Of a stretch of DNA of 64,000 bases, positions 22,780 through 61,331 are shown piece by piece. The position numbers and the translations under genes were made by a program. The notes beneath the pieces are model-generated. The model saw only the letters and a list, made by a program, of their open reading frames with translations. It was not told the DNA's origin and did no database searches. Every line of letters starts with the position of its first letter. Within the stretch, counting starts at the first letter, position 1. The stretch is from the NCBI GenBank assembly GCA_028275165.1, contig JAQCNF010000100.1, forward strand, positions 1 through 64,000, read 5' to 3'. Origin of the DNA: Haloquadratum sp. Its GTDB lineage: Archaea; Halobacteriota; Halobacteria; Halobacteriales; Haloferacaceae.

Positions 22780-22824
22780 TGAGCTGATTGAATTGAACTG
22801 ATTTGAGTTATGTCGGCTATCTAC

Positions 22825-39188: not shown

Positions 39189-39572
39189 ATGAAAGAAGTT
39201 GTTGACACAACTGATGCACCTGCTGCAGTCGGTGCGTATAGTCAGGCAACTATGACAGATGATTTACTGCTCACTGCTGGGCAACTCCCGCTGACAACAG
39301 AAGGAGAGTTGCTTGATGAAGCGCCAGTTGGCCAACAAACACGGCAGTGTTTAGAGAATATTGAAGCCATCCTTGATTCCGCAGGGTTGGAGATAGAATC
39401 ACTCATCAAAGTGAACGTATTTTTAGACGATATGGCTGATTTTGACGATTTCAACGACGCTTACGCGGAGTTTTTTTCGAAGGCGCCACCAGCACGAAGT
39501 GCCGTTGAAGTAGCGGCAGTTCCCAAGGGGGCTGCGATTGAAATCGAAGCGATCGCAACACGCTCATCATAG
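39189..39572 (+). CDS. ridA: RidA/YjgF-family imine deaminase
   Basis: This 127-residue protein is of standard RidA length with characteristic GAYSQA (residues 15-20), TAGQLPLTTEGEL and LIKVNVFLDD. It has the substrate-binding arginine Arg103 (ARSAVEV) and acidic Glu120. RidA hydrolyses reactive 2-aminoacrylate and other imines formed by PLP enzymes such as threonine/serine dehydratase; a threonine dehydratase gene lies at 48.8-50.1 kb. A TATA-like stretch (ATACTTATACTG) lies about 30 bases upstream. It stands alone after the gas vesicle cluster. Confidence 0.93.
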   Translation: MKEVVDTTDAPAAVGAYSQATMTDDLLLTAGQLPLTTEGELLDEAPVGQQTRQCLENIEAILDSAGLEIESLIKVNVFLDDMADFDDFNDAYAEFFSKAPPARSAVEVAAVPKGAAIEIEAIATRSS

Positions 39573-42299: not shown

Positions 42300-42509
42300 G
42301 TAATTGTGTCTGCACGTGGCCACCCTAAGAGTGTTCGCGATAGTGACAATGTATTACCAGAATGAGTTTTTGCCATATCGTCATCACGCCGCATAAAATA
42401 TCCACCTGCTGAGATATCGACCGTCCCAAATCGGAGGCTCAAAAACGGATCCAAACACAGGCTGGACCCGTCCGACAGTATCATTAATCGTGGAACATCC
42501 TTAGCTGGT

Positions 42510-45664: not shown

Positions 45665-47419
45665 ATGTCAGAGAATGAAGACGCAGCAGGAGAGATGTCT
45701 GATGGACTTCAGGTAGAGCTATTCCATCCGGAGTCTGACCGAGAGCCCGGGGACACAAATATTCAGAAGTGGGGATTCGACATTCACCCAGTTGTGTTCC
45801 CTGTCGCTCTTGTTGTCATTGCGCTATTTATTGCAGTCACACTTGGGATGGGAGATTCAGCTTCTGCAGCATATACGTGGTTATTCAACACAATCGGTGA
45901 TACATTTGGGTGGTTCTATCTACTGGCGGTCAATATATTTATTGTCACTCTACTGTTCTTCGCGTTGAGTAAATATGGAAAGATCAAGATTGGTGGTGTT
46001 GAGGCTGAAAAAGAGTTCAGTGACTTTTCTTGGATGGCAATGCTATTCAGCGCAGGCATGGGTATTGGACTCATGTTTTTCAGCGTCTCTGAACCACTCT
46101 ATTACCTGCAGACTGTTCCGTCATTCTTTGGTGCCGAAGCTGAAACAGGCGCAGCTGCGTCTGCAGCAATGGCACAAACATTCTTTCACTGGGGGTTCCA
46201 CCCATGGGCGATTTATGGCCTTGTTGGATTGGGACTCGCATTCTTTTCTTTCAATCGTGGACTCCCACTCACGTTCCGATCGATATTCTGGCCACTTTTA
46301 GGTGAGAAGATTTACGGCTGGCCAGGACATGTCATTGATCTCGTTACCGTTTTTGCAACCTTGTTCGGCCTTTCAACTTCATTAGGGCTCGGCGTTGCGC
46401 AAGTCAACACAGGCCTCTCATACGTCGGTGGGGATATGCTCGGCGTCGCTAATATCCCGACTGGGACGATTCCACAGGTTGCATTGATCGCAGGGATCAC
46501 GCTGATAGCAACAATGTCAGTGGCAGCCGGATTAGATGGAGGAGTCAAAAGGCTCAGTACGCTCAACCTGTATCTGATGTTTGCGCTGCTGGGCTTCCTG
46601 TTGATTGTCGGTCCAACAGTCTATATTTTCGGTTCCTGGGTTGAAGGATTGGGTGCATACTTTGGAAACATTCTTGCGCTGAGCTTCTTTACAGGAACCC
46701 TTGGTCAAGCTGCTAACGGCACCCCAACAGCATGGACAGTATTCTATTGGGGATGGTGGATTGCATGGTCTCCATTTGTGGGAATGTTCATTGCCCGGAT
46801 TTCAAAAGGGCGTTCTGTTCGTGAGTTCATCATGGGTGTACTGTTCCTCCCGTCTTTATTCTCCACGCTATGGCTATCTACCTTCGGTGGCTCAGCACTA
46901 TTTAATACTCTTGAAGGAAGCGGTGCTGCAATCGCAACTTACAATGAACTCGGACAAACTGTTGCGATGTTCGCAATGCTTGAGCAGTTCCCATTGGGCG
47001 CGCTGTCTGGCATTATTGCAACGCTGTTAGTCATTACCTTCTTCGTGACCTCATCAGACTCTGGATCGCTTGTTATCGACCACCTGACTTCTGGTGGGAA
47101 GCACGATGTCCCGAAGGCACAGCGAATTTTCTGGGCTGTCACTGAAGGAGCCGTTGCATCGATTCTGTTGATCGGAGGGGGCCTGACTGCACTACAAACA
47201 GCATCAATTACCACAGGTCTTCCGTTTGCTGTAATACTGTGTCTGATGTGTTATACAGTGTATCAGGGTCTCCGAAATGAGTACCAAATATTGGAGTCAG
47301 AGGAGTTCGCAGAGTCGATCCAAGACCTTACTGACCAAGATGAGGTTGAAGTCGTCACCTCAGGTGATGAGATGGTGACTGACATATCAAATAGCGATGA
47401 AGCACCAGGGAGTGATTGA
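45665..47419 (+). CDS. BCCT-family betaine/choline/carnitine transporter
   Basis: This 584-residue protein has 12 predicted membrane helices and charged, acidic N- and C-terminal ends. Family motifs are FSAGMGIGLMFFSVSEP (unwound Gly-rich helix, residues about 128-144), FHWGFHPWAIYG, and the signature FYWGWWIAWSPFVGMFIARI near residue 361-380. TSSDSGSLVIDHLTSGG follows. BCCT carriers import methylated osmolytes such as glycine betaine, choline, carnitine or dimethylsulfoniopropionate with Na+ or H+. The nearby dehydrogenases and demethylase suggest the solute is also broken down, but the exact substrate is unknown. Start ATG at 45665. Confidence 0.92.
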   Translation: MSENEDAAGEMSDGLQVELFHPESDREPGDTNIQKWGFDIHPVVFPVALVVIALFIAVTLGMGDSASAAYTWLFNTIGDTFGWFYLLAVNIFIVTLLFFALSKYGKIKIGGVEAEKEFSDFSWMAMLFSAGMGIGLMFFSVSEPLYYLQTVPSFFGAEAETGAAASAAMAQTFFHWGFHPWAIYGLVGLGLAFFSFNRGLPLTFRSIFWPLLGEKIYGWPGHVIDLVTVFATLFGLSTSLGLGVAQVNTGLSYVGGDMLGVANIPTGTIPQVALIAGITLIATMSVAAGLDGGVKRLSTLNLYLMFALLGFLLIVGPTVYIFGSWVEGLGAYFGNILALSFFTGTLGQAANGTPTAWTVFYWGWWIAWSPFVGMFIARISKGRSVREFIMGVLFLPSLFSTLWLSTFGGSALFNTLEGSGAAIATYNELGQTVAMFAMLEQFPLGALSGIIATLLVITFFVTSSDSGSLVIDHLTSGGKHDVPKAQRIFWAVTEGAVASILLIGGGLTALQTASITTGLPFAVILCLMCYTVYQGLRNEYQILESEEFAESIQDLTDQDEVEVVTSGDEMVTDISNSDEAPGSD

Positions 47420-47463
47420 CACGGACCAGATTGGCTTCACTCGATCGAAGGAAAGTTCTCAAG

Positions 47464-47473
47464 CGTTTTTTTA
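47464..47473 (+). terminator. T-tract terminator after the BCCT gene
   Basis: A run of seven Ts (GTTTTTTTA) 45 bases after the transporter stop codon fits archaeal T-tract termination on the plus strand. No stem-loop is required in archaea, and none is obvious. Confidence 0.4.
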
Positions 47474-47589
47474 TTGAAAATTAATCACGATACTGCGAGC
47501 TACTCTCTTTCAATTTTATCTTCACTCTCTGAGAATAAAAAATACGGGCTATGATATATATGTCTGTGACGAGTATGACACGGTAATAA

Positions 47590-48009
47590 ATGAGTTTGAG
47601 TTCACGTGGGGTTATTAAATGGTGTGCATCGGTTCTTCATCGCATCGTGGCGCCACTGCAGAAGGGAAATGGTCCGAATAAGTTTCAACTTTCAAGTATC
47701 GAGACTGCAACAACGACTTACCATGGAGATGTGGGATGGGCAAACCGACCAACGGCAGTAATTGAATGCCCGAAGTGTGAGGCAGATATTACACAACCGA
47801 TGTCATCTGATCGAATCGACTGTGATCGATGTCGAGCACGACTCCCACACTATGACTTTCCAGAGGCGACTCTTCTCTATTTTCAATGCCCAAGCTGCGG
47901 GAGTCAAATGAAGCACGGAAAGCGCCATCCTGATGAGTTTGAAATTCCTGAGTGGGCAACCTGCAGTCAGTGTCGGTATCACTGGGAGTTTGAGCATTCA
48001 TACAGTTAG
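47590..48009 (+). CDS. Zinc-ribbon protein of unknown function
   Basis: This 139-residue protein has three or four Cys pairs: IECPKCEAD near 58-66, DCDRCRARLPHY at 76-87, FQCPSCGSQMKHG at 98-110 and ATCSQCRYHWEF near the end. It suggests two zinc ribbons built in series. The N-terminus (first about 45 residues) is basic. It has no membrane segment. It may bind nucleic acid, but there is no proof. Start ATG at 47590; it precedes a tiny membrane protein gene in the same direction. Confidence 0.7.
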   Translation: MSLSSRGVIKWCASVLHRIVAPLQKGNGPNKFQLSSIETATTTYHGDVGWANRPTAVIECPKCEADITQPMSSDRIDCDRCRARLPHYDFPEATLLYFQCPSCGSQMKHGKRHPDEFEIPEWATCSQCRYHWEFEHSYS

Positions 48010-48089
48010 GTGATTGAGACAATCAGAGAGATGGTGTCGATTGAATTAATTAGCTCGGATAATTCGAATGAAATCGTGAGTCCGACTAC

Positions 48090-48257
48090 ATGTGGAAGAA
48101 TATGATTGCAGTAATTGCCGCTATCCTTGCTGGGCTATTTTTCTTGCTCGGATTAATCCTGATGACCGTCGGCGATTTACAGACAGCGGGGGCCACATTC
48201 CTTATTGCGAGTTTGATTATTTATCTCCGCGAGACCCGGCTTACCGAAACCTCATAG
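48090..48257 (+). CDS. Small two-helix membrane protein (55 residues)
   Basis: The frame from ATG 48090 to TAG 48255-48257 gives 55 residues. It starts MWKNMIAVIAAILAGLFFLL, a strongly hydrophobic helix. GLILMTVGD and a second helix GATFLIASLIIYL follow, then a charged end RETRLTETS. The competing longer frame (48092-48397) on the same strand is cysteine- and tryptophan-rich and runs antisense into uspA, so it is rejected. It lies 80 bases after the zinc-ribbon gene in the same direction, and its stop is 44 bases from the uspA stop. No family was recognised. Confidence 0.65.
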   Translation: MWKNMIAVIAAILAGLFFLLGLILMTVGDLQTAGATFLIASLIIYLRETRLTETS

Positions 48258-48301
48258 CAGCCGCTTATTTTAAATCGTGGACGCGGAAAGTCTGCAGCAG
48301 T

Positions 48302-48748
48302 TCAACTGATCTCATCGGCCTCCATTCGGCGAGTGATAACCGGAACAGATGCACTCCGAACAACTTTGTCAGTTGTTCCTCCGATCAAATTGCCTAATTT
48401 CCCCCGATATGCTGATCCAATCACTATGACGTCCATTTCTGCTTCGGCAGCGAACGTCACTATCTCATCACTCGGGGATCCAGTAAGAATATGTGATTCA
48501 TAGTCTACACCTGCTTCTGCTGCCATCGAACCGAGATCATTCAACACAGATTCACCGTACTCCTCATACTCTCGACGAATTTCTTCCTCGTCATCACGGA
48601 GTGCAACAGCACGCGGCGCACCAGGGAGACTGATAACATACAATCCATGAACCGTGGAACCTACTTCGGCGGCTAGTTCTATGCCATGTTCAACACCTTT
48701 ATCTGCCTCTTTGGTTCCATCATACGGCAGCAACATATCATTGTACAT
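48302..48748 (-). CDS. Universal stress protein, UspA family
   Basis: From ATG 48748 (MYNDMLLPYDGTKEADKG) it has 148 residues; the longer frame to 48778 is unlikely. The UspA fold has the ATP-binding pattern VIGSAYRGKLGNLIGGTTDKVV near the C-terminus (GxxG...GS type) and the LPYDGT start. Single-domain UspA proteins bind ATP or AMP and are common stress-response proteins in haloarchaea. It is convergent with the small membrane gene. The specific role is unknown. Confidence 0.9.
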   Translation of the reverse strand: MYNDMLLPYDGTKEADKGVEHGIELAAEVGSTVHGLYVISLPGAPRAVALRDDEEEIRREYEEYGESVLNDLGSMAAEAGVDYESHILTGSPSDEIVTFAAEAEMDVIVIGSAYRGKLGNLIGGTTDKVVRSASVPVITRRMEADEIS

Positions 48749-48831
48749 AGTTAACGTATTACAGTCATACGATAGCAATTTAAAATAATTTTCGGCAACA
48801 GACTAGCAATGCACTGTGTGTCGGGTCAAAT

Positions 48832-50088
48832 TCACCCAGAAATGGCGACATTTTCGACTGGATACCCAGCCGACTCTATCGAGGTAATAATCGTATCAGC
48901 ATGCTCAGACCCACTCGTCTCAATATTAAATATCAAGAACGCCTCACCAATATCGAGATCTTGGATTGACCGTTCATGCCGAACATCGTGGATATTCGCA
49001 TCATGATCGGCGATTACGCCCGAAATGTCTTCTAAAACGCCAGGGGCATCATCGATTCGAATTTGCAATCGTAGCCGTTGCTCACGGGCGGTAAGAGCAT
49101 GATCAAGGATCTCCCTGAGTCGAGTCATGTCAAGGTTTCCGCCACAGAGAAGTGGCATAACTGTCTCTCCAGAGACATCAGTCTGGTCGCTCAGCAGAGC
49201 GGCTACAGACGCTGCGCCAGCACCCTCAACGACCTGCTTTGCACGTTCAATGAGGAGTAGAATTGCTTGCGCGATTTCGGTGTCACTCACCGTGATGACT
49301 TCATCGACGTTTTGCTGTATGAGCGAGAGCGTTTGTTCTGAGATACCACCAGTTGCAATACCGTCGGCGATCGTGTCAACTCGATTTAACGTAACCGGGT
49401 GGTCTTTTTCTAAACTCTTGATGACTGTTTCGGCGCCATCAGCCTGGACTCCAATAACTCTGGTCTCTGGAGAGAGGTGCTTAATTGCAGTTGATATGCC
49501 CCCGATCAGACCACCCCCTCCAATAGGGACGACCACAGTGTCCGCATGTGGCAGGTCGTGATACATCTCAATACCAAGGGTTCCTTGCCCTGCGATAATC
49601 GCTGCATCGTCAAATGCGTGGACAAATTCTGCTGTGCTGTCCTCAGCAGCCTGCTTGGCATGCATCATTGTTTCTTGGAAGTCGTGTCCGACTAATCTTA
49701 CACTCGCTCCGTAGCCACGCGTTGCGTCCACCTTTGTTTGTGGAGCATCAGTCGGCATAAAGATCTCCGCTTCTGCGTTACACTTCGCTGCTGCTAAGGC
49801 GACCCCCTGTGCGTGATTGCCAGCACTCGCTGCGACAAAGGAGTTCGTCCCATTTGCTGTCGATTGTTTGATTTTATTGTATGCTCCACGCGTCTTGAAC
49901 GACCCAGTCCACTGCAGATGCTCCATCTTGAGATGAACCTCCGCATTGAGCATCTGTCCAAGCGAAGTGCTTTGCTCAATCGGCGTTGACTTCACGACTG
50001 ATTCGTCAGTCAGTCGTTCGCGTGCACGCTGGATATCGACATAATCGATCGGCAGTGATTGTGTTGAGCTTATTTCGGTATCGCTCAC
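48832..50088 (-). CDS. ilvA: Threonine ammonia-lyase (threonine dehydratase)
   Basis: This 418-residue PLP enzyme starts with a GTG at 50088. The PLP lysine is Lys65 in SFKTRGAYNK, the asparagine-containing loop is SAGNHAQGVAL, and the PLP phosphate-binding loop is PIGGGGLIGG. A C-terminal ACT-like regulatory domain (about 330-418) is present: LRLQIRIDDAPGVLEDISG. It converts threonine (or serine) to 2-oxobutyrate (pyruvate) and ammonia; a 2-aminoacrylate intermediate is a RidA substrate (RidA gene at 39.2 kb). It may serve isoleucine synthesis or catabolism. It is separated by about 60 bases from the flavoprotein gene upstream on the same strand. Confidence 0.9.
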   Translation of the reverse strand: MSDTEISSTQSLPIDYVDIQRARERLTDESVVKSTPIEQSTSLGQMLNAEVHLKMEHLQWTGSFKTRGAYNKIKQSTANGTNSFVAASAGNHAQGVALAAAKCNAEAEIFMPTDAPQTKVDATRGYGASVRLVGHDFQETMMHAKQAAEDSTAEFVHAFDDAAIIAGQGTLGIEMYHDLPHADTVVVPIGGGGLIGGISTAIKHLSPETRVIGVQADGAETVIKSLEKDHPVTLNRVDTIADGIATGGISEQTLSLIQQNVDEVITVSDTEIAQAILLLIERAKQVVEGAGAASVAALLSDQTDVSGETVMPLLCGGNLDMTRLREILDHALTAREQRLRLQIRIDDAPGVLEDISGVIADHDANIHDVRHERSIQDLDIGEAFLIFNIETSGSEHADTIITSIESAGYPVENVAISG

Positions 50089-50145
50089 AGTACCTCACCT
50101 CCGACCGGTATCAGTCCGTGAGATCGTTCTCTATGCATATGAGCC

Positions 50146-52698
50146 TCACCGAGTGATTTTCTCTCGGGCTGCATCATACAGTGGTTCATCACGAACAGTA
50201 GCGTCATACTCTTGACCTTCACATTGAATTGTGACTGATGTACCTGCCTCTGCGACTGTGGCAGGAAGGTAGGTATACGCTATTGAGGCATCAACACTAT
50301 ATCCGTAACTACCAGCTTGGACATATCCTTTCACTGATCCATTATGTGAGACAGGTCGGCCGCTCAACATAATATCAGTCGAATTATCAATCGTGAGTGG
50401 CGTGATTTTGTTCTGAGGCTGTCTTTGTCCTTGGTTATCTAACGCAGCTTGGCCGATAAAGTCCGTCTCCATATCGACGGCAAAGGGTAGTCCTGCTTCG
50501 AACGGATTCACGTCGGTATCGATGTCGGTTCCCCAGAGTCGATATCCTTTCTCTAAGCGCATTGACTCAAGCGCACCATCACCCATCGGTCTAATATCAA
50601 GATCTTGCCCGGCATCCCATAGGGTCTCCCATAGACGAGCACCGTACTCTACTGGTGCCCAGAGTTCCCAGCCCAGTTCACCAACGTAAGATACGCGCAG
50701 TGCTGTTACTGGGACTTCACCAACATAGAGTTGCTTAGCAGTGAAATATGGGAATTCATCATTAGACACATCAGCGTCTGTGCATCGCTGCAAGAGCAAC
50801 CGAGAGTCAGGACCCCATAATCCAATAGTGCTTTTAGCGCCTTCTTCAATATTGACTGCGACAGTTTCTGGAGCATGCGACTTGAGCCATGACCCATGTA
50901 TCTGTGGAGAGCTCCCGCCCCCAGTGGTAACCATATATTTCGTATCAGCGATTTTAACCACGGTCACATCGCCAAGGATACCACCACCTTGGTTCAAAAG
51001 CAGTGAGTATCGAACATCCCCGACATCAAGCGAGATATTATTGCTGCACATACGCTGCAGGAACGAACCTGCATCTGTGCCTTCGATCATGATACTACTG
51101 AATGAACTCATATCGTAGAGCGAAACCGCCTCGCGCGTGTGAAGATGTTCGGCAGCTTCGATACGCGAACGGTTAATCGCCTGCCACCCATCTTGGGCTG
51201 GTATCTTGTCCTCGTATCGCTCTAACAGGTCCTCGTTGCTCGCATACCATCGTGCAGACTCCCACCCACCGCTGTGGGTGAACTCCGCACCAAGATTATC
51301 CTGGTGAGCATGGAATGGACTTCGGCGGAGGCCTCGATGTGATGACGATTGCCATCGAGGTTCAACGATAGAGTAGACTTGTTGATATCGTTTGGCACCT
51401 TTGTCAACGAAATAGTCTTTCTCGCCGACATGCGGGGCAAATCGCTCAACATGAATCGCACTGCTATCGATGCGCTGTCCATCCAGCTGAGGAACGCCAC
51501 TCTCCATCCACTCTGCTAATATATTTCCGTATCCCCCAGAGTGTGTCCACCAGATAGCAAGTGCACTCCAGAGCCCATCGACATCAGCGAGTGGTCCAAG
51601 CGCTGGCATTCCATCTGGAGTAAAGACGAAAATGCCATTCTCGGTCGCCATGTATCCCTGATCTTCGACGGCCGGCAGTAGCGTTTCAAACGCTTCCTGC
51701 GCGGATTTCTCTCGGTTTGGATGTGTTGGTTGCTCCCAATGCTTGGGTGTAAATGGATTCACAGACGCTTGCTCGTCTGCTGAATTCGTCCCCATTTCAT
51801 CGGGATCGACCGACAACGACTCGTGATTGTATGAGCCTAATCCGATGGAGTTACCATGCGTACGGAAATATAGCGAATTGTCTTGGTCCCGACCAACTGG
51901 CAGAGTCGGGCCTTCACTCATTACCTCCTGAATGTCCCGATTGCCAGGTATCTCTAATCCTGTCGTATTATTCCCAATAGTTGAGCGTTCATTCGAAAGT
52001 TCAGTGAGCGGCTCAGTGACGACATATTGGTGTTCGACAGGTGCTATTGGAAGGTCAATATCAGCGAGTTGTGCTGTCTGATACCCCCAGTTATTGGTCG
52101 CAATCACACACCGTTCACACTCGATATTGCCACGGTCTGTGATGACACGGGTTATTGATTGTTTGTCTGTCTCTAAGTCAATAACTTGGGTATGACTAAA
52201 GAAACGTCCATTTGTGTGCTCGCGATACCACTCTAGTGCGGCAATCCCATCAACTCTCCCATCAGTCGGAGAGTAATACCCACCCAATATCTCGGAGCTA
52301 TCAACGAGTGGTAATCGATCTGAAACTTCTGATGGTGAGAGAAGCGTCGGGTTCGGTAGTCCGTACGACTTCGCCCACTCAACTCGTCGCTGCAGGAAAT
52401 CCATTCGTTGCTCACTTCTCGCTACTTCGATTCCACCCACTTCATCATATACTCCAGCGTCGGAGAGAAGACGTGAAGTATAATATGCAGTCTTGGTTTG
52501 AATCTTTGATGGGGATGTCTGAAACATAATCCCTGGTGCGTGAACAGATGATCCCCCAGTGACTGGTAGTGGTCCTTGATCAAGAACAAGTATGTCTTCA
52601 GCGCCAAGTTCACTCAGATGATATGCGACTGAGCTTCCCACGGCACCGGCCCCGATAATCACAGTGTGCGCTTGGCCCGGCAGTTCGGTTGAACTCAT
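50146..52698 (-). CDS. Dimethylglycine/sarcosine dehydrogenase-like flavoprotein with GcvT domain
   Basis: This 850-residue enzyme has an N-terminal DAO-type FAD domain, VIIGAGAVGSSVAYHLSELG (14-33). His53 follows in GGSSVHAPGIMFQT; this matches the histidine (TWHAAG) to which FAD is covalently bound in dimethylglycine and sarcosine dehydrogenases. The C-terminal half (from about 470) is a GcvT/aminomethyltransferase-type fold with SLYDMSSFSSIMIEG, NQGGGILGDVTVV and ELGWELWAPVEYG, which binds tetrahydrofolate. It would oxidise a methylamine such as dimethylglycine or sarcosine and pass the methyl carbon to THF. It is a tandem paralogue of the next gene. Confidence 0.88.
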   Translation of the reverse strand: MSSTELPGQAHTVIIGAGAVGSSVAYHLSELGAEDILVLDQGPLPVTGGSSVHAPGIMFQTSPSKIQTKTAYYTSRLLSDAGVYDEVGGIEVARSEQRMDFLQRRVEWAKSYGLPNPTLLSPSEVSDRLPLVDSSEILGGYYSPTDGRVDGIAALEWYREHTNGRFFSHTQVIDLETDKQSITRVITDRGNIECERCVIATNNWGYQTAQLADIDLPIAPVEHQYVVTEPLTELSNERSTIGNNTTGLEIPGNRDIQEVMSEGPTLPVGRDQDNSLYFRTHGNSIGLGSYNHESLSVDPDEMGTNSADEQASVNPFTPKHWEQPTHPNREKSAQEAFETLLPAVEDQGYMATENGIFVFTPDGMPALGPLADVDGLWSALAIWWTHSGGYGNILAEWMESGVPQLDGQRIDSSAIHVERFAPHVGEKDYFVDKGAKRYQQVYSIVEPRWQSSSHRGLRRSPFHAHQDNLGAEFTHSGGWESARWYASNEDLLERYEDKIPAQDGWQAINRSRIEAAEHLHTREAVSLYDMSSFSSIMIEGTDAGSFLQRMCSNNISLDVGDVRYSLLLNQGGGILGDVTVVKIADTKYMVTTGGGSSPQIHGSWLKSHAPETVAVNIEEGAKSTIGLWGPDSRLLLQRCTDADVSNDEFPYFTAKQLYVGEVPVTALRVSYVGELGWELWAPVEYGARLWETLWDAGQDLDIRPMGDGALESMRLEKGYRLWGTDIDTDVNPFEAGLPFAVDMETDFIGQAALDNQGQRQPQNKITPLTIDNSTDIMLSGRPVSHNGSVKGYVQAGSYGYSVDASIAYTYLPATVAEAGTSVTIQCEGQEYDATVRDEPLYDAAREKITR

Positions 52699-52887
52699 TG
52701 GTGATAACTCACAATGATTTTGTCACGGATATAAATACAACGGTGAGAGCAACGAACAGGCGAAATTCTTCACTCTCAGCCGCTCAGGCGTCAAGAAAGC
52801 ATTTCCGGGTGATGAACGAACACGCGGATTCACACAGTATGACGACGATTTGATAGGTAGAGGAAGTATATGTTCCCAGAGACGACG

Positions 52888-55470
52888 CTATACGAGTGGT
52901 TCCTCTCGGACAGTGGCTGTGTAGCGGGTGCCTTCAAACAGGATGTCAACAGATGTGCCTGGATCCGTGTATGCAGGCGGCAAATATGCGTATGCAACAC
53001 AGGACCCGACCGTATATCCATATTCTGCACTATGAACGTATCCCAATGATTCATCTCCATCAAGAACAGGACGATTGTCCAAGATTGCTGCATCTGGGTC
53101 ATCAAGGGTCAAACAAGCAACTTCCTTCGCAGGTGTGCCCCCATCAGCGGTTGCTGCTATGCGTTGGGTGAGTGCGTCCTTGCCAATAAAGTCAGTGTCG
53201 TAATCAACCGCCCACTCAAGACCCGCTGTTTTCGGAGTATGCTCGGTGTGTAGGTCCTCACCCCACAGGCGGAATCCCTTCTCAATACGGAGTGCATTTA
53301 ATGCACCATTTCCGTATGGCCGGAGTCCATATGATTCACCTGCATCAAGTAAGATTTCCCATAACTGCTCACCGTACTCCGATGGAGTGTACAGCTCCCA
53401 TCCGAGTTCACCAGCATATGACACTCGAAGTGCCCGTACAGGAACATTCCTCACATAGAATTCTTGCGTGGTAAAGAATGGGAATGCTTCGTCTGAGAGA
53501 TCGATATGAGTGACTTCCGACAGAACCTTTCGTGCATTCGGGCCTGTACACACCATTGCAGCATAACTTGAGGTTACATCATTCACGACAACATCGGCTG
53601 GCGACTGGTTTCGGACCCATGCCACGTGATTGTTTCCAACCTCACGTCCAGTAGTGAGTACGAGATATCTATCTGTGTCGGTTCGTGTGACTGTTACATC
53701 GGCTCGAACACCACCTCCCTCATTACACATCAAGGTGTATTTGATCTCACCAACATCTATATCCATGTTGTTTGTACACAGTCGCTGGATGAATTCAGGT
53801 GCGCTACTCCCGATGACTTCCATCTTATTGAAAGAGGTCATATCATGAAGCCCGACGTTTTCACGGACATTCAGCGCCTCTGCCCCCTCTATTGGAGACC
53901 AGTATTTTCCTTCCCATCCATTTCGAGACGGGATCTGATCCTCATACCGGTCAACTAAATCTGCGTTTGACTCGAACCACTGTGGCTCTTCCCACCCGGC
54001 TTCAGCCCACAGTTCCGCATCAAGTTCCTTGTGGGTATGATACATCGGTGTTCGACGAATATTCCGTTGTTTGTCCGTCCAGACCCACTTTGGGTGCATA
54101 GCGTTGTAGACAATGCGGTACTCTTCGGCACCAATGTCTCGTGCAAAATTCCAGCTTCCTTCATGTTCATCAAATCGGTTCACATTGCACTCAGAGAGAT
54201 CGATCGGTCCGTCAGCGAGCTTTGGAACGCCTGTTTCCATCCATTCAGCAAGTGCCTTAGCAGCTCCACCAGCGTGAGTGATCCAAATGGCTGCTGCTGT
54301 CCACAGACCATCATATGACTCAACAGGGCCGAGCACAGGGAGTCCATTTGGCGATTCCGCAAACATGCCATTATATTTATACTCCAGATCCACTCCTTGA
54401 GTCGCTGGGAGCAACTCATCGCTCGCCTGTCGAGGTGACTTGTGTGGACGGTCAGGATGCGTCGCAGTATTCAGATGCTTTTCGGTGAACTCATGAACTG
54501 ATCCTTGCTCGCCGTCCGGATCGTTTCCACTCAGTTCCTGTGGATCTGGGACGATCGGTTCGTGATTATATGACCCGATTCCGTATGAATTACCGTGATT
54601 ACGGTAGTACATCGCGTTATCTTGATCACGAAGGATCGGGCGGTCTGGGCCGACAAGTAGCTGGGCAGCTTTGCTTCCAGAGACGTTTTCGTAGTTCTCT
54701 AACAGTGGATGCGATGAGATATCTACTTCACTATCGGCGAGTTCGGGCAGTGACTCAGTCATCGTGTACTGGTGCTCAACAGGTGTGATTGGAAGGTGAA
54801 CACCAAGTTTTTCGCTCAGTTGTCGAGCCCAAATGTTCGTTGCAATAACGACCTCATTGCAGTCTATCGTCCCTCGTTCGGTGTCAATGCCAGTGATCTC
54901 TTCACCACTGGTTTCGACATTCTCCGTCCGCGTATGAGGTACGAAGGTGGCGCCGTTGTCAATTGCCTTCCGTGCGAGCGCCTCGCACGCTACCACACCG
55001 GAGGCCTGTCCATCGGTTGGAGAATAATACCCGCCGAGAATCTGGCTCTCATCAACGAGAGGAAGTCGTTCTGAGACTTCAGATGGCGAGAGAATTTCTG
55101 GGTCGGGGATTCCCCATGCCTTGGCGTGCTCGACTCGACGTTGGAGGAATGCCATACGCTCTTCGCTTCGAGCTACCTCGATGCCGCCGACTTCATTATA
55201 TGCTTGCTGACCGTCTGCACCTTCAAGATTAGTGTATACTTGACGGCTATAGTCAGCGAATTTCGAGAGCACTTTCGGCTCAGCAGTCTGGAACATAATT
55301 CCGGGGGCATGCGTAGATGACCCGCCCGTCGTTGGCATGGGCCCTTGGTCAACAACGACCACATCGTCTCGCCCCATTTCGGTCAGCTGGTAGGCGACAT
55401 TACATCCAACAATACCTGCCCCAACAACGACAGTATCTGCACTGGCAGGGAGTGTCTCATTCGGGTTCAT
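52888..55470 (-). CDS. Second dimethylglycine/sarcosine dehydrogenase-like flavoprotein with GcvT domain
   Basis: From ATG 55470 (MNPNETLPASADTVVVG) it has 860 residues; the frame extends to 55533 with an unlikely Cys-rich leader. The FAD site is TVVVGAGIVGCNVAYQL, and the putative flavin-attaching histidine is His54 in GGSSTHAPGIMF. The GcvT-type C-terminal half has GLHDMTSFNKMEVIGSS, NEGGGVRADVTV and ELGWELYTPSEYG. It is clearly homologous to the previous gene along its length but diverged, so the two likely act on different but related substrates (dimethylglycine, sarcosine) in succession. The spacer of 190 bases between the two suggests separate or tandem transcripts. Confidence 0.88.
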   Translation of the reverse strand: MNPNETLPASADTVVVGAGIVGCNVAYQLTEMGRDDVVVVDQGPMPTTGGSSTHAPGIMFQTAEPKVLSKFADYSRQVYTNLEGADGQQAYNEVGGIEVARSEERMAFLQRRVEHAKAWGIPDPEILSPSEVSERLPLVDESQILGGYYSPTDGQASGVVACEALARKAIDNGATFVPHTRTENVETSGEEITGIDTERGTIDCNEVVIATNIWARQLSEKLGVHLPITPVEHQYTMTESLPELADSEVDISSHPLLENYENVSGSKAAQLLVGPDRPILRDQDNAMYYRNHGNSYGIGSYNHEPIVPDPQELSGNDPDGEQGSVHEFTEKHLNTATHPDRPHKSPRQASDELLPATQGVDLEYKYNGMFAESPNGLPVLGPVESYDGLWTAAAIWITHAGGAAKALAEWMETGVPKLADGPIDLSECNVNRFDEHEGSWNFARDIGAEEYRIVYNAMHPKWVWTDKQRNIRRTPMYHTHKELDAELWAEAGWEEPQWFESNADLVDRYEDQIPSRNGWEGKYWSPIEGAEALNVRENVGLHDMTSFNKMEVIGSSAPEFIQRLCTNNMDIDVGEIKYTLMCNEGGGVRADVTVTRTDTDRYLVLTTGREVGNNHVAWVRNQSPADVVVNDVTSSYAAMVCTGPNARKVLSEVTHIDLSDEAFPFFTTQEFYVRNVPVRALRVSYAGELGWELYTPSEYGEQLWEILLDAGESYGLRPYGNGALNALRIEKGFRLWGEDLHTEHTPKTAGLEWAVDYDTDFIGKDALTQRIAATADGGTPAKEVACLTLDDPDAAILDNRPVLDGDESLGYVHSAEYGYTVGSCVAYAYLPPAYTDPGTSVDILFEGTRYTATVREEPLV

Positions 55471-55560
55471 TTGGTTACAGATTATCTTTGATGGGTAAAC
55501 TAATATGTACCGCTGCTTGTTATGTTCACACAAAGTATCAGTAATGATATAGATAACTAT

Positions 55561-56295
55561 CTACCCTGTTCGGGGCGCAGCGGAGCGATGCACCACAGCA
55601 TCAATCAACTCACACAGCGATTCCCCTGCGAGGCGAAGGAGCTCTGCCCCGAGAGATTTCGACGCCTCACGGGGGTCGCCAACGACCCCGTTCTCGGTGA
55701 ATTCATCAGAATCGACAGCGAGGTTTACTTTTCCTTGCCACTCTCCCCATTGGTCACTGGCATCGACCGCGGCTGCTTCAATACGATCTGTCGAAACCAG
55801 CTGAGGGTATGTTTCCAGTAATAACGCTGTCTCTATTGAGCCAGCGTGTCCCATTTGAGACCGGTGTTCGTCAATTTCATCGAACCAGGTGAACGCGGTG
55901 GCGTATACTGGGTCCTCGCGCACGATTGTCGCTGTTACCTCTTTCAGAGCGTTCGTATTCCCACCGTGGCCGTTCACAACAATCACATGCTCACAATTGT
56001 GTGAGGCAAGACTATTGACGATATCTCGGATGTACGCCCTGAATATCTCTGGACGCGTCCAGAGCGTTCCATCAAACGCCCGATGCTCTTTCGCAATTCC
56101 GACCGGAACAGCTGGAGCAACAATAACGGTTGAGTCAGACGACGCTGCACCTTCCTCAGCAACTGCCTTGGCTGTGAGTGTATCGGTCCCAAGTGGTGCG
56201 TGTGGTCCGTGTTGCTCTGTGCTCCCAACTGGTAGCAGTGCACAGTCAGCGTTGGTAGCGGCTACATCTGTGGTTGAATACTCTTCGAGGTTCAC
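55561..56295 (-). CDS. Creatininase-family amidohydrolase
   Basis: This protein has the family start LLPVGSTEQHGPHAPLGTDT, the metal-binding Glu/His/Asp (EQHG...GTD), and VVNGHGGNTNALKE. The ATG ORF start at 56352 gives an extra ~19 residues (MSYLCAVGSWIN) that do not fit the family. The GTG at 56295 (VNLEEYSTTDVA) puts the GSTEQHG motif at about residue 24, as expected, so GTG is preferred (244 residues). Family members include creatinine amidohydrolase and archaeal formamide hydrolases in flavin/deazaflavin synthesis. Location next to sarcosine-type dehydrogenases favours creatinine or a related amide, without proof. It is divergent from the deacylase at 56363. Confidence 0.85.
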   Translation of the reverse strand: MNLEEYSTTDVAATNADCALLPVGSTEQHGPHAPLGTDTLTAKAVAEEGAASSDSTVIVAPAVPVGIAKEHRAFDGTLWTRPEIFRAYIRDIVNSLASHNCEHVIVVNGHGGNTNALKEVTATIVREDPVYATAFTWFDEIDEHRSQMGHAGSIETALLLETYPQLVSTDRIEAAAVDASDQWGEWQGKVNLAVDSDEFTENGVVGDPREASKSLGAELLRLAGESLCELIDAVVHRSAAPRTG

Positions 56296-56362
56296 GATAT
56301 CAGACTGATATGAGCGATTAATCCATGAACCTACTGCACATAGATAGCTCACGAATCAGCAC

Positions 56363-57358
56363 ATGTCTTCAGAGTTATTCCGACATGACTCCGAGCGAGT
56401 CCCGATTGGAATCCTCCCGCATGGCAACGAAATTAACATTACCGTTCACCGATATGAGTCTGGACCAGGAGATACTGTATATATACAGGCCGGGCAACAC
56501 GGGATTGAGTTGAATGGTCCGGTTGCACTAAAACGTCTTCATCACGCTCTTATACGGTCTGAAGGGAGTGGAACCGTCGTTATTGTCCCAGTGGTGAACC
56601 CAATCGCGTTCGATAATCGAGAGTATAGCACGCCACCGAATTACGACGCGAGAAATGGCAATATCAATCGCGTGTGGCCAGGAAATGAGAATGGAAGCTA
56701 CGTCGAACGGATGGTAAACGAACTTTGGCCTATTGTTACCCAAGCTGATTACGCCATTGACCTCCACACAGGGTCTCCGGAAATGCTCCCTCATGTGCGC
56801 ATATGTCAGAACACGACACCACAATGCCGTCTCGCTCGTCCATTTGGATCAGAATACCGGCTAATAGGCGAAGGTCCGGGGAACCAGGAGAATAACTCAA
56901 AGAAAACGACATTTCGGCTCGCAGCGGAGGGGGTCAATATTCCTGCACTGACCGTTGAGCTCGGCAACAGTGGGTCTGTAGGTATTGAAGCTGTAAGACG
57001 AGGGAGGAATGGATTGATGAGAATACTCCAATCACTTGGGATTGTCACTGGCCTTCCAGACGGACTCACACTCCCGGAGCCATCTTCACAGCGAGTTATA
57101 TACGACGACGTGCCGCCAGTACGAACACCAGCTTCTGGTATCTTTGAGCCAACGAGTGAATTAGGTGTTGGTCAAGTTGTCGAAGCTGATACAAAATTAG
57201 GCCATGTATTTAATCCAGCAACATTTAATCAAGAGGCAACGATAACTGGAGGAGACTCAGGTGTGTTATATTCCCGTCTTGACGGCGGAATTGTATTCAG
57301 TGGCGAGCGCATCGCGAGCATTGCGACGGAGCAGTCTCCAGGTGGACAAATAAAATGA
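56363..57358 (+). CDS. Succinylglutamate desuccinylase/aspartoacylase-family zinc deacylase
   Basis: This 331-residue enzyme of the M14-like AstE/AspA family has the zinc motif AGQHGIELNG (His46, Glu49). VNPIAFDNREYSTP, DARNGNINRVWPG and the third ligand His135 in AIDLHTGSPE follow. It hydrolyses an N-acyl amino acid or similar amide. Tandem arrangement with a creatininase-family gene suggests a joint role in degrading a nitrogen compound, though ectoine-degradation deacylases belong to the same family and are another option. The divergent gap to the creatininase gene is 67 bases (GTG start). Confidence 0.85.
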   Translation: MSSELFRHDSERVPIGILPHGNEINITVHRYESGPGDTVYIQAGQHGIELNGPVALKRLHHALIRSEGSGTVVIVPVVNPIAFDNREYSTPPNYDARNGNINRVWPGNENGSYVERMVNELWPIVTQADYAIDLHTGSPEMLPHVRICQNTTPQCRLARPFGSEYRLIGEGPGNQENNSKKTTFRLAAEGVNIPALTVELGNSGSVGIEAVRRGRNGLMRILQSLGIVTGLPDGLTLPEPSSQRVIYDDVPPVRTPASGIFEPTSELGVGQVVEADTKLGHVFNPATFNQEATITGGDSGVLYSRLDGGIVFSGERIASIATEQSPGGQIK

Positions 57359-57442
57359 TTAATGTTGAACGTATACTTCAATAGGTTCAGTATTCCCCAT
57401 ATACCCTTAGAAGATCATAAGTTGTTGTCTACTCACAAAGTT

Positions 57443-58519
57443 ATGGGGTCGCAGATTAATGACTCACTTCATGCGCTATCAGAGTTTGTCGACACGTTTG
57501 AATCTAAACACGGAACGATCGGTCAAGTAGATGTTGAAATTCAAAGCAATCCAGCAGAAAGCTTGAGTGCAGAGCTTTCAGTCCCGCTATGTCTGTGCGC
57601 TAATTCAGATCAGAGCTCAGATGTCGTTTTGATCGATATCTCAGATATTGCGTTCAAACAAGACTCAATCCGATTGTGCGGATCCATTCCTGCAGTCGAA
57701 TCTATTCGGTCATCAAGTGTAGTGTCGATAGAAGATACCGATGTCACACAGATAGACGAGGAGCTCAAGCTCATCGTAACTTTGAGTATTGACCCAGCAT
57801 CGTCTACGCAATCAAGCGTGATGACGACGACATCAGACCAGCAAACAGCATCACGAACTGTTGAGAATCGAGGCGGATCAGAGCGGCAGGTTGGTGTCTT
57901 TGGAGGGATTACCGGCAGCCAGTCAAATCCAACTCATGTGGATTCAGAACACCATTGCGATGAACCGCCGACGGGGAATGCAGATCAGACGGTCATACAC
58001 GCATTAGAGGATGCACGAAGCGAGGATATCCCTGCGTACGATGACACAGCGTACCTTCGTGAACTATACAATCGATTGGACACGTTTGAGCAGATGGCCG
58101 AGCGAATTGAACTTGATGTCTCTGGAGAGACTGTCCGTCGATATATGATCGACGCAGGTATTCACTCCCCAACTACATACCAGCAAACTACCACTCAAGA
58201 GTCACAAGAGGACACCGCTTCATCTCCCGACAACCTCTCCGACGACAGCGGCGTTCATCGGTCTGATGAGCAACGATTACTGGCCGATGGGCGAGGAATG
58301 CCCGACCAGGTAACTGCCGCAGAATTAGCAGAGGCAGTGATTCATTCGCAGACAGTGTACCAAGTGCGCAGGCGGCTTTCGCTTGACGATGATGAGACAA
58401 GACAGCTACTCAGACGGTTCAATCTATTGGATCTTGTCATTCACCGTGTGAACAAGAACACACAGCATAATACAACCTATGACGATGTCATAGAGCGTAT
58501 TCAGCAACGACTGTCATAG
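57443..58519 (+). CDS. Uncharacterised protein with HTH-like C-terminal part
   Basis: From ATG 57443 (MGSQINDSLHALSEFVDT) it has 358 residues; the frame from 57362 carries an atypical leader. Residues about 1-130 form a beta-rich acidic domain. A Ser/Thr/Gln-rich disordered linker follows, about 130-205. Two helical segments come next. The first is YLRELYNRLDTFEQMAERIE, continuing LDVSGETVRRYMIDAGIHSP, which looks like a helix-turn-helix. A second shorter repeat of the theme is ELAEAVIHSQTVYQVRRRLS. A DNA-binding regulator is possible. It follows the deacylase gene by about 85 bases and precedes the MTHFR-like gene, so it may regulate this region. Confidence 0.6.
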   Translation: MGSQINDSLHALSEFVDTFESKHGTIGQVDVEIQSNPAESLSAELSVPLCLCANSDQSSDVVLIDISDIAFKQDSIRLCGSIPAVESIRSSSVVSIEDTDVTQIDEELKLIVTLSIDPASSTQSSVMTTTSDQQTASRTVENRGGSERQVGVFGGITGSQSNPTHVDSEHHCDEPPTGNADQTVIHALEDARSEDIPAYDDTAYLRELYNRLDTFEQMAERIELDVSGETVRRYMIDAGIHSPTTYQQTTTQESQEDTASSPDNLSDDSGVHRSDEQRLLADGRGMPDQVTAAELAEAVIHSQTVYQVRRRLSLDDDETRQLLRRFNLLDLVIHRVNKNTQHNTTYDDVIERIQQRLS

Positions 58520-58540
58520 CTGAGCTCATAGGACAGACAG

Positions 58541-58553
58541 CCGTATATAAACG
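58541..58553 (+). promoter_or_regulatory. TATA-like box upstream of the methylenetetrahydrofolate reductase gene
   Basis: The sequence CCGTATATAAACG lies about 60 bases upstream of the gene start at 58609. Archaeal TATA boxes sit about 25-30 bases from the transcription start, so the leader would be about 30-40 bases. It follows directly after the HTH-like gene stop. Confidence 0.4.
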
Positions 58554-58608
58554 GGTTTGTCAATGCACCCGTACATCAAAATACGTGAAGAACTGACATA
58601 GACAACAT

Positions 58609-59472
58609 ATGTCACTTGGTGCGGTTTCACAGGCGACTGACGATGGAGTGAATCACTTGCTGGCAGACCCACGGTTTGAGCTGATGCCATTCGACAGCTT
58701 TGAGTCTGAGATCGAAGCGCTTCCGACCGGATCAGCAATTGCAATCACCACATCACCACAATTAGGTATCGAAAGCACCGTAGACCGTGCAGAACTGGCT
58801 GCATCAATGGGATATGAGGTCGTTCCACACATTGCTGCAAGATACGTCAATGGAGACGATCAGCTCAGGGACATTGCACGCCGACTTACTGGGGCAGGTA
58901 TCACTGATATGTTCGTCCCGGGTGGAGATAGAGAGGAGCCTGCAGGCTCATACGAATCAGCATTGGATCTCTTAGAAGCACTAGATGACATGCCATATTC
59001 GTTCGATGAGATTGGTATTACAGGGTATCCTGAGGGGCACGATTTTATTTCAGATAAGGAATTGACACGTATCATGAATCGAAAAGCCCCCTATGCAACA
59101 TATATTGTCACACAATTGTGTTATGATCATGAAGCAATTTTAGAATGGATTTCCGATATCAGAGACCAAGGGATTGAGCTTCCTGTCGAGATCGGCATCC
59201 CAGGTGTGATGAATTATGCGAAATTACTCAAGATATCGCATAAAGTTGGGGTCGGTGATTCAATTAAGTTCCTGCGGAAGACATCAGGAATTGTTGATAC
59301 TGTGAAACGGTTCGTAGGGTCTCGGGGTGTGTATAAACCTGATGACCTCATCGATGGGTTAGCTCCATATTACGATGATGATAAGTACAATATCGATGGC
59401 GTTCACATCTACACATTCAATCAAACACCCGACGTCGAGTCCTGGCGACAAAACAGGGTCACACAGAGATAG
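58609..59472 (+). CDS. Methylenetetrahydrofolate reductase-like enzyme
   Basis: This 287-residue protein has the MTHFR TIM-barrel features: VVPHIAARYVN near residue 65, MFVPGGDREEPAGSYESALDLLEAL, then the substrate motif ITGYPEGHDFI near 140. FLRKTSGIVDTVKRFV follows. MTHFR reduces 5,10-methylene-THF to 5-methyl-THF (or works in the reverse direction in folate-linked demethylation). Length is close to the bacterial type (about 290-300). Location within a set of THF-dependent demethylation genes suggests it handles methyl-THF released by the demethylase at 59964-61331. Confidence 0.85.
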   Translation: MSLGAVSQATDDGVNHLLADPRFELMPFDSFESEIEALPTGSAIAITTSPQLGIESTVDRAELAASMGYEVVPHIAARYVNGDDQLRDIARRLTGAGITDMFVPGGDREEPAGSYESALDLLEALDDMPYSFDEIGITGYPEGHDFISDKELTRIMNRKAPYATYIVTQLCYDHEAILEWISDIRDQGIELPVEIGIPGVMNYAKLLKISHKVGVGDSIKFLRKTSGIVDTVKRFVGSRGVYKPDDLIDGLAPYYDDDKYNIDGVHIYTFNQTPDVESWRQNRVTQR

Positions 59473-59963
59473 ATAGTGATGTGTCATTTCCGGAAACATA
59501 GCGTGTCTCAAGAGATCTCAGTCGATGATCCTCATTTAGCAGGATACAATCACTCCCGTCACGTCAGAAGCGACCGCGGGGCGGGAAGGGAAACAGCGTC
59601 GCCCGTGAGTTGTGGTGTGCGAATCGCGGAGCGATTTGTCACGTTCTCAGCGGTTCAGACAGCTCCACACGTTTATTCTGGCCTGTGTCACAGCATGTAA
59701 CACGATGCTTCCCACATCTGCAAGCTATTCGAGCGCAGGGAGAGCGCGGTGGTTCACACAGTTCACAAGCACTGTATTTCAATGCAGTCGTCATTCAATC
59801 TGTAAACTGACGTTGCAAATCGTCACCACGCCTTTATTTCTGACACCTCGCAGTGCATCTCAGTGTATGCACAGATACACAAAAGAGTGAGCCGCGGCCA
59901 AGATTCAGATGAGAATTGAATTGAATTGGTATCGACACCAATAGCTTCGGTTTAGAAACTTAC
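59473..59963. other. Non-coding 490-base gap, GC-rich in part
   Basis: This is the gap between the convergent MTHFR-like and DmdA-like genes. It is partly GC-rich (59560-59760) and has the short inverted repeat CGAATCGCGGAGCGATTTG near 59620-59638. Open frames here (59476-59890) are Cys/His/Ser-rich and not haloarchaeal in composition, so they are rejected. It may be mobile-element debris. Nothing else was recognised. Confidence 0.35.
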
Positions 59964-61331
59964 TTAATCACTCGCTTCTTGTTTTGCTCCTAACTTAGCC
60001 TGTTCTCTTGCGCTTGGGTTGACTGACTCCTTGAACGGAACCTCAGCTACCGTCGCAAACACCGACTCATCACCCTCACTATACCTGTCTGGTAGGTGGA
60101 CCTCAAATTCGAGATCAAGATCGTCCTCATATATCTCGTCGTTTAATCTCACATCAGTTTCTTCCTGAAGCTTCTCTGCAGGGACAAACCCGAGTCCAAT
60201 ATTTGTTTCGAGATCTGGATTCCACCACGGGGAGGTCATGTATCCACATTCATTGCCCGTCTGTGGGTCGGAGATCAGCCAGAAATCAGGCGCATAGTCT
60301 CGAATAGGCTCGCCAGCTATCTTGAGACCAACAAGCTTGAGATTGAACGGATACTCGCCTTCGTTGATGAGAGACTGCTGTCTCTCAAGTTCTTCTTTGC
60401 CGATATAGTCTCCTGGTTTCTCATCTGGAACTTGGTATCCAAGATTTACCTGGAATGGTGACGTCTCGTGGTCCATATCTTGGCCCCATGAGAGAATTCC
60501 TGCTGCGATACGGCGATGATGTCCCGGTGCAATCTGCATTCCGCCGTGTGCTTTGACTGAATCTAACACAGGATCCCAGACACGTTCGGCGTTTTTCGAT
60601 GCGTCTCGAACATATATTTCGAAGCCTTTCTCACCAGAGAATCCAGTCTGGCTGATAAGTACCTCTGCACCATTGATTTCTGCCTCCATCAACCCATAAT
60701 AAGGGATCTCAGACACAGATTCACCAGCAACATCAATCATTACATCCTCAGAGAGCGGCCCTTGAATTTGCATGGGAGCAACATCGATTTCATCCACCTC
60801 AGCATCGAAATCCATGCCCACGTTGACACCCTGAATCCACTGCATTAACGTCGAATCTGAGATAGAGAACCAGAATTCATCATCAGATATTCGAAGAAGA
60901 ATTGGATCGTTTAGGATGCCGCCATCCTCGTTACAGAGAATGACATACTTTCCGTGCATCGGATCGATTTCTGTTGCATCTCTGGTAATAACGTAGTCTG
61001 TCAGTGCTTCTGCATCTGGACCCTTGACACGTATTTGACGCTCAACTGCGACGTCCCACAGTGTCACTGCTTCTGTCAGTGCTTCATACTCCGCCATCGC
61101 ACCACCATCTTCTGGCTCAACAAGTCCACGAGGGTGATATATCCGGTTGTAAACAGTGCACCGCCAGGCACCTTCTTCATTGAATGATTTATCGAAAAAA
61201 GGGGATTTTCGCACACGCGTTGAAACGAGCATCTCAATTCCGGGGTCACCAGTCTGTCTCAGATTTCTCGGGAGCACTCGATCAGACTGATCGACATCCG
61301 GATGATTCGGGTGATCTTGACTATCACTCAT
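59964..61331 (-). CDS. DmdA/GcvT-family tetrahydrofolate-dependent demethylase or aminomethyltransferase
   Basis: This 455-residue protein of the GcvT fold has VSTRVRKSPFFDKSFNE near the start (residues 36-52). TVYNRIYHPR, LWDVAVERQIRVKGPDA and YVITRDATEIDPMHGKY follow, with NEDGGILNDPILL after them. The pattern (S-x-R-x-R-x-x-P, then YN, then D-V-A-V-E-R-Q) resembles dimethylsulfoniopropionate demethylase DmdA more than the glycine-cleavage T protein, which begins differently. The product would be methyl-THF plus a demethylated compound. The C-terminal part is extended and acidic. Whether the substrate is DMSP, a betaine or an amine is not decidable from sequence. An AT-rich box (GATTATTTATG) is about 20-30 bases upstream of the ATG. 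Confidence 0.8.
   Translation of the reverse strand: MSDSQDHPNHPDVDQSDRVLPRNLRQTGDPGIEMLVSTRVRKSPFFDKSFNEEGAWRCTVYNRIYHPRGLVEPEDGGAMAEYEALTEAVTLWDVAVERQIRVKGPDAEALTDYVITRDATEIDPMHGKYVILCNEDGGILNDPILLRISDDEFWFSISDSTLMQWIQGVNVGMDFDAEVDEIDVAPMQIQGPLSEDVMIDVAGESVSEIPYYGLMEAEINGAEVLISQTGFSGEKGFEIYVRDASKNAERVWDPVLDSVKAHGGMQIAPGHHRRIAAGILSWGQDMDHETSPFQVNLGYQVPDEKPGDYIGKEELERQQSLINEGEYPFNLKLVGLKIAGEPIRDYAPDFWLISDPQTGNECGYMTSPWWNPDLETNIGLGFVPAEKLQEETDVRLNDEIYEDDLDLEFEVHLPDRYSEGDESVFATVAEVPFKESVNPSAREQAKLGAKQEASD

Follow-up and report, generated by a model that had tools for sequence, protein, structure and literature searches.

Introduction

Among the compatible solutes of salt-adapted microbes, glycine betaine is a major one, and its breakdown is known to begin with one of three kinds of first step: betaine-homocysteine methyltransferase (BHMT), the Rieske oxygenase GbcAB or corrinoid-linked enzymes of the MttB type. 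In SAR11, Roseobacter and Arthrobacter, betaine is degraded by BHMT or GbcAB, followed by a dimethylglycine dehydrogenase (DMGDH) or dimethylglycine oxidase (DMGO) and a sarcosine enzyme. For haloarchaea, DMGO-like genes near genes of BCCT transporters were reported in 2011 in H. walsbyi, H. volcanii, H. marismortui and H. turkmenica, and the possible use of betaine, dimethylglycine or sarcosine was raised, the enzyme for the conversion of betaine to dimethylglycine not being named (PMC3102087). No description of how haloarchaea open up betaine was found in the papers searched. Here, a gene cluster was studied in a 64,000-nucleotide stretch of DNA (the window; positions 1 to 64,000 of contig JAQCNF010000100.1, assembly GCA_028275165.1) from a Haloquadratum-like haloarchaeal metagenome-assembled genome (MAG) of 3.1 Mb and 73% completeness. 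With a probability of roughly two-thirds (about 0.66), this cluster encodes a folate-based route of glycine betaine catabolism in which a protein resembling the dimethylsulfoniopropionate (DMSP) demethylase DmdA supplies the first step; the substrates are those to which the genome evidence points.

Several described systems resemble parts of this locus. DmdA of P. ubique (3tfh) has the GcvT fold and the folate residues of the DmdA-like protein, and a redox-neutral reaction in which an onium donor gives up a methyl group to tetrahydrofolate (THF) is proposed here as well; however, the DmdA-like protein stands in a sister clade at ~30% identity, and its genomic partners are betaine and dimethylglycine genes. 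The LigM-MetF pair of the Sphingobium SYK-6 type (7xg9) likewise ties a THF-dependent demethylase to a MetF that oxidises 5-methyl-THF, whereas in the archaeal window a DmdA-like protein replaces LigM as the partner and betaine, rather than methoxy-aromatics, is proposed as the donor. DMGO (1pj5) and DMGDH (4pab) share their four domains and catalytic residues with the two flavoproteins of the window, FAD1 and FAD2, but these are tandem paralogues, probably split between dimethylglycine and sarcosine. With SAR11, Roseobacter and Arthrobacter, the locus has in common flavoproteins of the DMGDH and sarcosine dehydrogenase type, THF-linked one-carbon oxidation and the passage from glycine to serine and pyruvate. 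It differs in the proposed fate of the first methyl group, which would be passed directly to THF with no need for homocysteine, O2 or cobalamin.

Conserved neighbours and co-occurrence of the DmdA-like gene

The DmdA-like protein of the window (455 amino acids; 59964-61331, minus strand) was used as bait, which yielded 80 named loci, of which 66 came from haloarchaeal genomes or MAGs. The genes of these loci were found by tblastn and a composition-scored gene finder, and neighbours were counted in the DNA retrieved around each of the 66 loci, with the families of representatives being checked. A gene for MetF-type methylenetetrahydrofolate reductase (MTHFR) was a neighbour in 52 loci, a bacterio-opsin-activator-type helix-turn-helix protein in 35, an IlvA-type lyase in 34, DMGDH-type flavoproteins in 31, a BCCT transporter in 28, FolD in 27, the universal stress protein Usp in 23, the formate-THF ligase Fhs in 16 and serine hydroxymethyltransferase (SHMT) in 10. 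PabA-like and PabB-like genes (9 and 8 loci), the FolC-FolP fusion FolCP (8) and a formate-dehydrogenase-like molybdopterin oxidoreductase (8) also recurred, and creatininase-family (7) and AspA (5) genes were minor neighbours. From what is known of such pathways, the recurring neighbours are the parts with which a methylated glycine is imported, its methyl groups are loaded on folate and then oxidised or put to new use, and serine and pyruvate are made from glycine. The same folate-linked logic has been described for SAR11 and Ruegeria (PMC3160333, PMC4744692).

One set of 145 haloarchaeal genomes was searched with each query. The DmdA-like gene was present in 30 genomes and a DMGDH-type flavoprotein in 42, including all 30 that have the DmdA-like gene (Fisher p = 1e-21). 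MetF-type MTHFR was found in 31 genomes, namely, the same 30 and one of the 115 others (p = 3e-30). When counted by genus, the DmdA-like gene was accompanied by the flavoprotein in 12/12 genera (p = 6e-8) and by the MTHFR in 12/12 (p = 1.5e-11). The clustering is therefore not due to chance, since it is seen again in dozens of loci from haloarchaea and its key genes co-occur genome-wide.

Two known first steps were also considered. BHMT was ruled out as a hidden first step, with its family found in 0 of the 145 genomes. The MTTB family of corrinoid methyltransferases was found in only six genomes, every one of which already had the DmdA-like gene, and it was rejected as a general first step. 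Separately, MTTB-family genes were seen beside Fhs, FolCP or a flavoprotein at L101:7309-8787, L102:14714-16207 and L103:18306-19766.

A flavoprotein without the DmdA-like gene was found in 12 of the 145 genomes, and in 11 of these 12, a Rieske oxygenase gene was located 1.9-5.1 kb from the flavoprotein gene. An IlvA-type gene was present in 9 and a BCCT gene in 10 of these 11 loci, so that most of them combine the flavoprotein, the lyase and the transporter; SHMT and a sarcosine/N-methyl-amino-acid oxidase of the monomeric kind are sometimes present too. The position of the DmdA-like gene and the MTHFR is taken in these loci by the Rieske gene and by a small HVO_B0008-type protein. The best family model for the Rieske protein was GbcA (141 bits against a cut-off of 670), and the best solved structure was carnitine monooxygenase; these matches place it with the quaternary-ammonium oxygenases. 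Considering that two unrelated enzymes alternate before the same dimethylglycine/sarcosine module, the simplest explanation is that both do the same job, namely, the first demethylation of betaine.

DmdA-like orthologues of ~62% identity were also observed in Gemmatimonadota and gammaproteobacterial MAGs (loci L071-L084). In all seven of the loci from these groups that had enough flanking DNA, a DMGDH-like gene directly adjoins the orthologue; this gene is divergent and falls with a third clade of haloarchaeal flavoproteins. Therefore, the link to dimethylglycine holds beyond haloarchaea.

The DmdA-like protein and its paired reductase

The DmdA-like protein matched GCV_T with 143 bits and the NCBIfam DmdA model with 234.8 bits, which is under the equivalog cut-off of 410. 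The top fold match of its AlphaFold2 model (pLDDT 85.7) in the PDB was DmdA (3tfh; TM 0.93 over the target), and the folate-site residues Asp142 and Glu238 of the GcvT fold are conserved. In the tree, 31 DmdA-like orthologues formed their own clade (support 100/99), sister to DmdA plus a group at 36-42% identity. This GcvT tree includes one open reading frame that is not GcvT (L004, with a very long branch), of which the clades used are independent. Bacterial orthologues within the clade are 60-65% identical, and the nearest named relative, from Haloquadratum sp. J07HQX50, is 98% identical.

The family has Y-N-R-x-Y-H-P-R where DmdA has Y-N-H-x-L-L-P, and it is further set apart from DmdA by the invariant residues Arg63, Tyr65, His66, Arg68, Gln188, Tyr212 and Phe231 and by an insertion containing Gly-Gly. 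Roseovarius genomes carry an orthologue together with a separate DmdA-type protein beside an acuI-like gene (acuI being named by eye). Residue W171 of DmdA has been called key for DMSP (PMC7487153); by our own mapping, it corresponds to W197 of 3tfh, a position occupied by Phe in all orthologues and by Tyr in the acuI-adjacent DmdA of Roseovarius. A clade of homologues distinct from DmdA had already been recognised in 2020 in work on the evolution of this enzyme (PMC7487153). Judged by these sequences, the DmdA-like family stands beside DmdA as its sister clade and is distinct from it.

A second DmdA-like paralogue (~66% identical) was observed in several haloarchaea (L104:8997-10361 and L027:11825-13186). 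At L104, it lies near genes for an aldehyde dehydrogenase, a thiamine pyrophosphate enzyme and a GMC oxidoreductase, and because of these neighbours it may use another methyl donor.

The MetF-type MTHFR of the window (58609-59472, plus strand; PF02219) had 7xg9 as its best PDB match (124.7 bits; 33% identity over 258 positions), and every other MTHFR chain scored at most 52.7 bits. According to a review, an MTHFR subfamily exemplified by that of Sphingobium SYK-6 runs from 5-methyl-THF to methylene-THF and has evolved in concert with LigM, a THF-dependent demethylase (PMC13001107). By our own reading of this review's summary, 7xg9 appears to be such a reverse-running enzyme. Since the MTHFR of haloarchaea is generally assumed to be an F420-dependent (Mer-like) one (PMC8305020), the MetF-type enzyme would be an extra one, linked to a demethylase. 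Its near confinement to genomes with the DmdA-like gene (30/31) argues for 5-methyl-THF as the product of the DmdA-like protein. It is therefore proposed that this MTHFR is of the demethylase-coupled kind and would oxidise 5-methyl-THF to 5,10-methylene-THF. The DmdA-like protein and the MTHFR likely form the missing first step, which was overlooked in the preliminary description of this DNA.

The flavoproteins FAD1 and FAD2

FAD1 (850 amino acids; 50146-52698, minus strand) and FAD2 (881 amino acids by the first start; 52888-55533, minus strand) are both of the DMGDH/DMGO type, with DAO, FAO_M, GCV_T and GCV_T_C domains; for FAD2, the ATG at 55470 is the likely start instead. They scored 542 and 573 bits, respectively, against DMGO (1pj5). 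In DMGO, the residues considered are the His that binds FAD covalently, the catalytic His and Tyr, and the Asp of the THF site. Equivalents of DMGO His48, His225, Tyr259 and Asp552 are present in both proteins and are conserved across the aligned flavoproteins (66/67, 67/67, 67/67 and 65/67, respectively).

FAD1 and FAD2 form sister clades and are ~47% identical to each other. A monomeric sarcosine/N-methyl-amino-acid oxidase was found in 10 loci, together with FAD1 or its relative FAD-C and never with FAD2, and the 22 loci with FAD2 all lack this oxidase. This distribution suggests that FAD1 is a dimethylglycine dehydrogenase and FAD2 a sarcosine dehydrogenase. Genes resembling EtfB and EtfA adjoin the third flavoprotein clade, so electrons may pass to the electron transfer flavoprotein rather than to O2.

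Organization of the locus and other genes of the window

The cluster contains two runs of genes arranged head to head. The minus-strand run, with intergenic gaps of 27-189 bp, comprises a creatininase-family hydrolase (55561-56352; PF02633, 224 bits; accessory), FAD2, FAD1, a pyridoxal phosphate (PLP)-dependent threonine/serine ammonia-lyase of the IlvA type with an ACT domain (48832-50088; TIGR01127, 430 bits against a cut-off of 379) and Usp (48302-48778; 90.5 bits), which commonly adjoins the BCCT gene. The plus-strand run, whose genes are 3 and 89 bp apart, comprises a zinc deacylase of the AstE/AspA family (56363-57358; PF24827, 102 bits; accessory), which reached 79 bits with the DoeB model against a cut-off of 403, a 385-residue haloarchaeal protein designated w57362 (57362-58519) and the MTHFR. 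The DmdA-like gene lies 491 bp past the MTHFR gene and is convergent with it. Searches of w57362 against Pfam and NCBIfam profiles gave zero matches; two helix-turn-helix-like stretches were recognised in it by eye, and it is a possible regulator of the cluster. Its conservation is low, with homologues in 23 of the 66 DmdA-like loci and also in several Rieske-type loci.

Further to the left are the BCCT gene (45665-47419, plus strand), FolCP (42510-44912, plus strand; Mur_ligase_M/C and Pterin_bind), a folate biosynthesis fusion, and Fhs (40575-42323, minus strand; PF01268 (FTHFS), 805 bits). The BCCT protein scored 592 bits with PF02028 and passed the general BCCT cut-off; with the betaine BCCT model it gave 513.9 bits, under the equivalog cut-off of 650. 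It carries the motifs FHWGFHPWAIY, WTVFYWGWWIAW and TSSDSGSL, whose meaning we take from general knowledge of BetP. A RidA family protein (39189-39572, plus strand; PF01042, 130.6 bits) could clear 2-aminoacrylate released by the PLP ammonia-lyase. Of the four GCV_T matches in this 73% complete genome, three lie inside the window.

All genes named in the preliminary description, including Fhs and FolCP at 40.6-44.9 kb, were present, intact and close to where it had placed them; the IlvA-type lyase, Usp and w57362, which belong to the same runs, were absent from its list.

Elsewhere in the window, a chorismate-binding and glutamine-amidotransferase pair (28764-30916) is possibly a p-aminobenzoate synthase for folate; other haloarchaea likewise have PabA/PabB-like pairs close to the DmdA-like gene. 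Gas-vesicle genes (GvpC-type, 31346-32473; GvpL/F, 37976-38818) flank an IS605/TnpB-type gene (34213-35517) with a Cas12f1-like TNB domain. A hydantoinase/oxoprolinase A and B pair (13657-17285) and a run of MoxR-type AAA, VWA and BatA-like genes with haloarchaeal domains of unknown function (18956-27640) were also observed.

Discussion

From the evidence described above (the genes with their folds and catalytic residues, their conserved linkage, their co-occurrence across genomes and the Rieske swap), we infer each substrate, the direction of the MTHFR reaction and the electron acceptors of the following route. Betaine would be imported by the BCCT transporter, and the DmdA-like enzyme would convert betaine and THF to dimethylglycine and 5-methyl-THF, as DmdA does with the sulfonium of DMSP. 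The MTHFR would then turn 5-methyl-THF into methylene-THF. FAD1 would convert dimethylglycine to sarcosine and FAD2 sarcosine to glycine, with the methyl carbons passing to THF as methylene-THF. SHMT would combine glycine and methylene-THF into serine, from which the PLP ammonia-lyase would release pyruvate and ammonia. Surplus one-carbon units would leave via FolD, Fhs and formate dehydrogenase, yielding ATP and reducing power.

A catabolic role of the cluster is very probable, and on the genome evidence betaine is the probable donor of the DmdA-like protein. The wider proposal, that in haloarchaea and some marine bacteria a GcvT-fold protein moves the methyl group of betaine directly to THF without cobalamin, homocysteine or O2 and is served by a dedicated MTHFR oxidising 5-methyl-THF, has a slightly better than even chance of being correct. 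No THF-dependent betaine demethylase was described in the literature searched, which is weak evidence of novelty since most subscription papers were outside that search. The preliminary description had proposed a folate-linked breakdown of methylated osmolytes. This is borne out by the genes present, by their conservation and by the catalytic residues they encode, but the list of substrates was too wide: betaine, dimethylglycine and sarcosine are retained, with betaine as the best-supported entry substrate, and DMSP and creatinine are dropped for the reasons given below.

Several observations weigh against the betaine route. The swap between the Rieske and DmdA-like genes is not absolute and not strictly exclusive: a Rieske gene also stands by the flavoprotein in four genomes with the DmdA-like gene (G051, G080, G130 and G132), and one genome (G053) has the flavoprotein and neither of the two. 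The Rieske proteins are themselves assigned by similarity alone, well under the GbcA cut-off. In another genome (G057), the MTHFR is present and the DmdA-like gene is missing. Orthologues are infrequent in Rhodobacteraceae (7/249), and their neighbours there vary. According to a report cited in PMC3102087, betaine did not enhance the growth of H. walsbyi. The patchy occurrence in Rhodobacteraceae suggests lateral transfer, and the neighbours there were abandoned as a guide to the substrate, being too variable for much to be gained.

Among the alternatives, the strongest is that the donor is another compound, such as choline, carnitine, proline betaine, trimethylamine N-oxide (TMAO), trimethylamine or a methoxy compound, and that only the one-carbon pathway is shared with betaine. 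Relatives in the GcvT family, such as LigM and TMAO demethylase, do accept varied donors, the swapped Rieske protein is nearest to carnitine monooxygenase among solved structures, and six genomes with the DmdA-like gene contain MTTB-family genes. It would, however, leave unexplained why every genome with the DmdA-like gene has flavoproteins of the dimethylglycine/sarcosine type and why, where that gene is absent, an oxygenase of the GbcA/CntA type stands by the flavoproteins; this alternative is considered unlikely.

It is still less likely that the protein is a true DMSP demethylase by which algal DMSP is used, with the flavoproteins serving a separate dimethylglycine/sarcosine pathway, although the nearest solved structure and fold are those of P. 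ubique DmdA and BCCT transporters are generally known to carry DMSP-like compounds. Its separate clade, its score below the DmdA cut-off and its constant co-occurrence with DMGDH-type flavoproteins (30/30), which are unneeded for DMSP demethylation, speak against this identity, which was rejected; moreover, Roseovarius has both proteins, and genes like dmdBCD or acu were not noticed beside the DmdA-like gene.

A biosynthetic role, in which methyl-THF produced by the MTHFR is spent by the DmdA-like protein on methionine or another methylation, is very improbable. MTHFR usually works in the reducing direction, and the MTHFR of G057 has no DmdA-like partner; against this, most haloarchaea lack MetF-type MTHFR and are thought to use the F420 type, the partners are catabolic flavoproteins, a BCCT transporter and an ammonia-lyase, and the nearest MTHFR structure is of the reverse-running type. 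Finally, a creatinine/creatine pathway leading through creatininase to sarcosine can be dismissed: a creatininase-family gene does adjoin the sarcosine-type flavoprotein, but its product scored under the cut-offs of the creatininase (91 against 235 bits) and MftE (133 against 172 bits) models, no creatinase was seen in the cluster, and the gene is as rare among the loci as counted above.

If the betaine route is correct, an enzyme that demethylates betaine directly onto THF would add a fourth kind of first step to betaine breakdown, independent of O2 and cobalamin, and it would extend the theme of DmdA, LigM and TMAO demethylase to a quaternary ammonium compound. The missing step in the recycling of betaine in brine would then be explained by a kind of enzyme new to betaine, and its gene would serve to mark the turnover of betaine in brines and, possibly, in certain marine bacteria.

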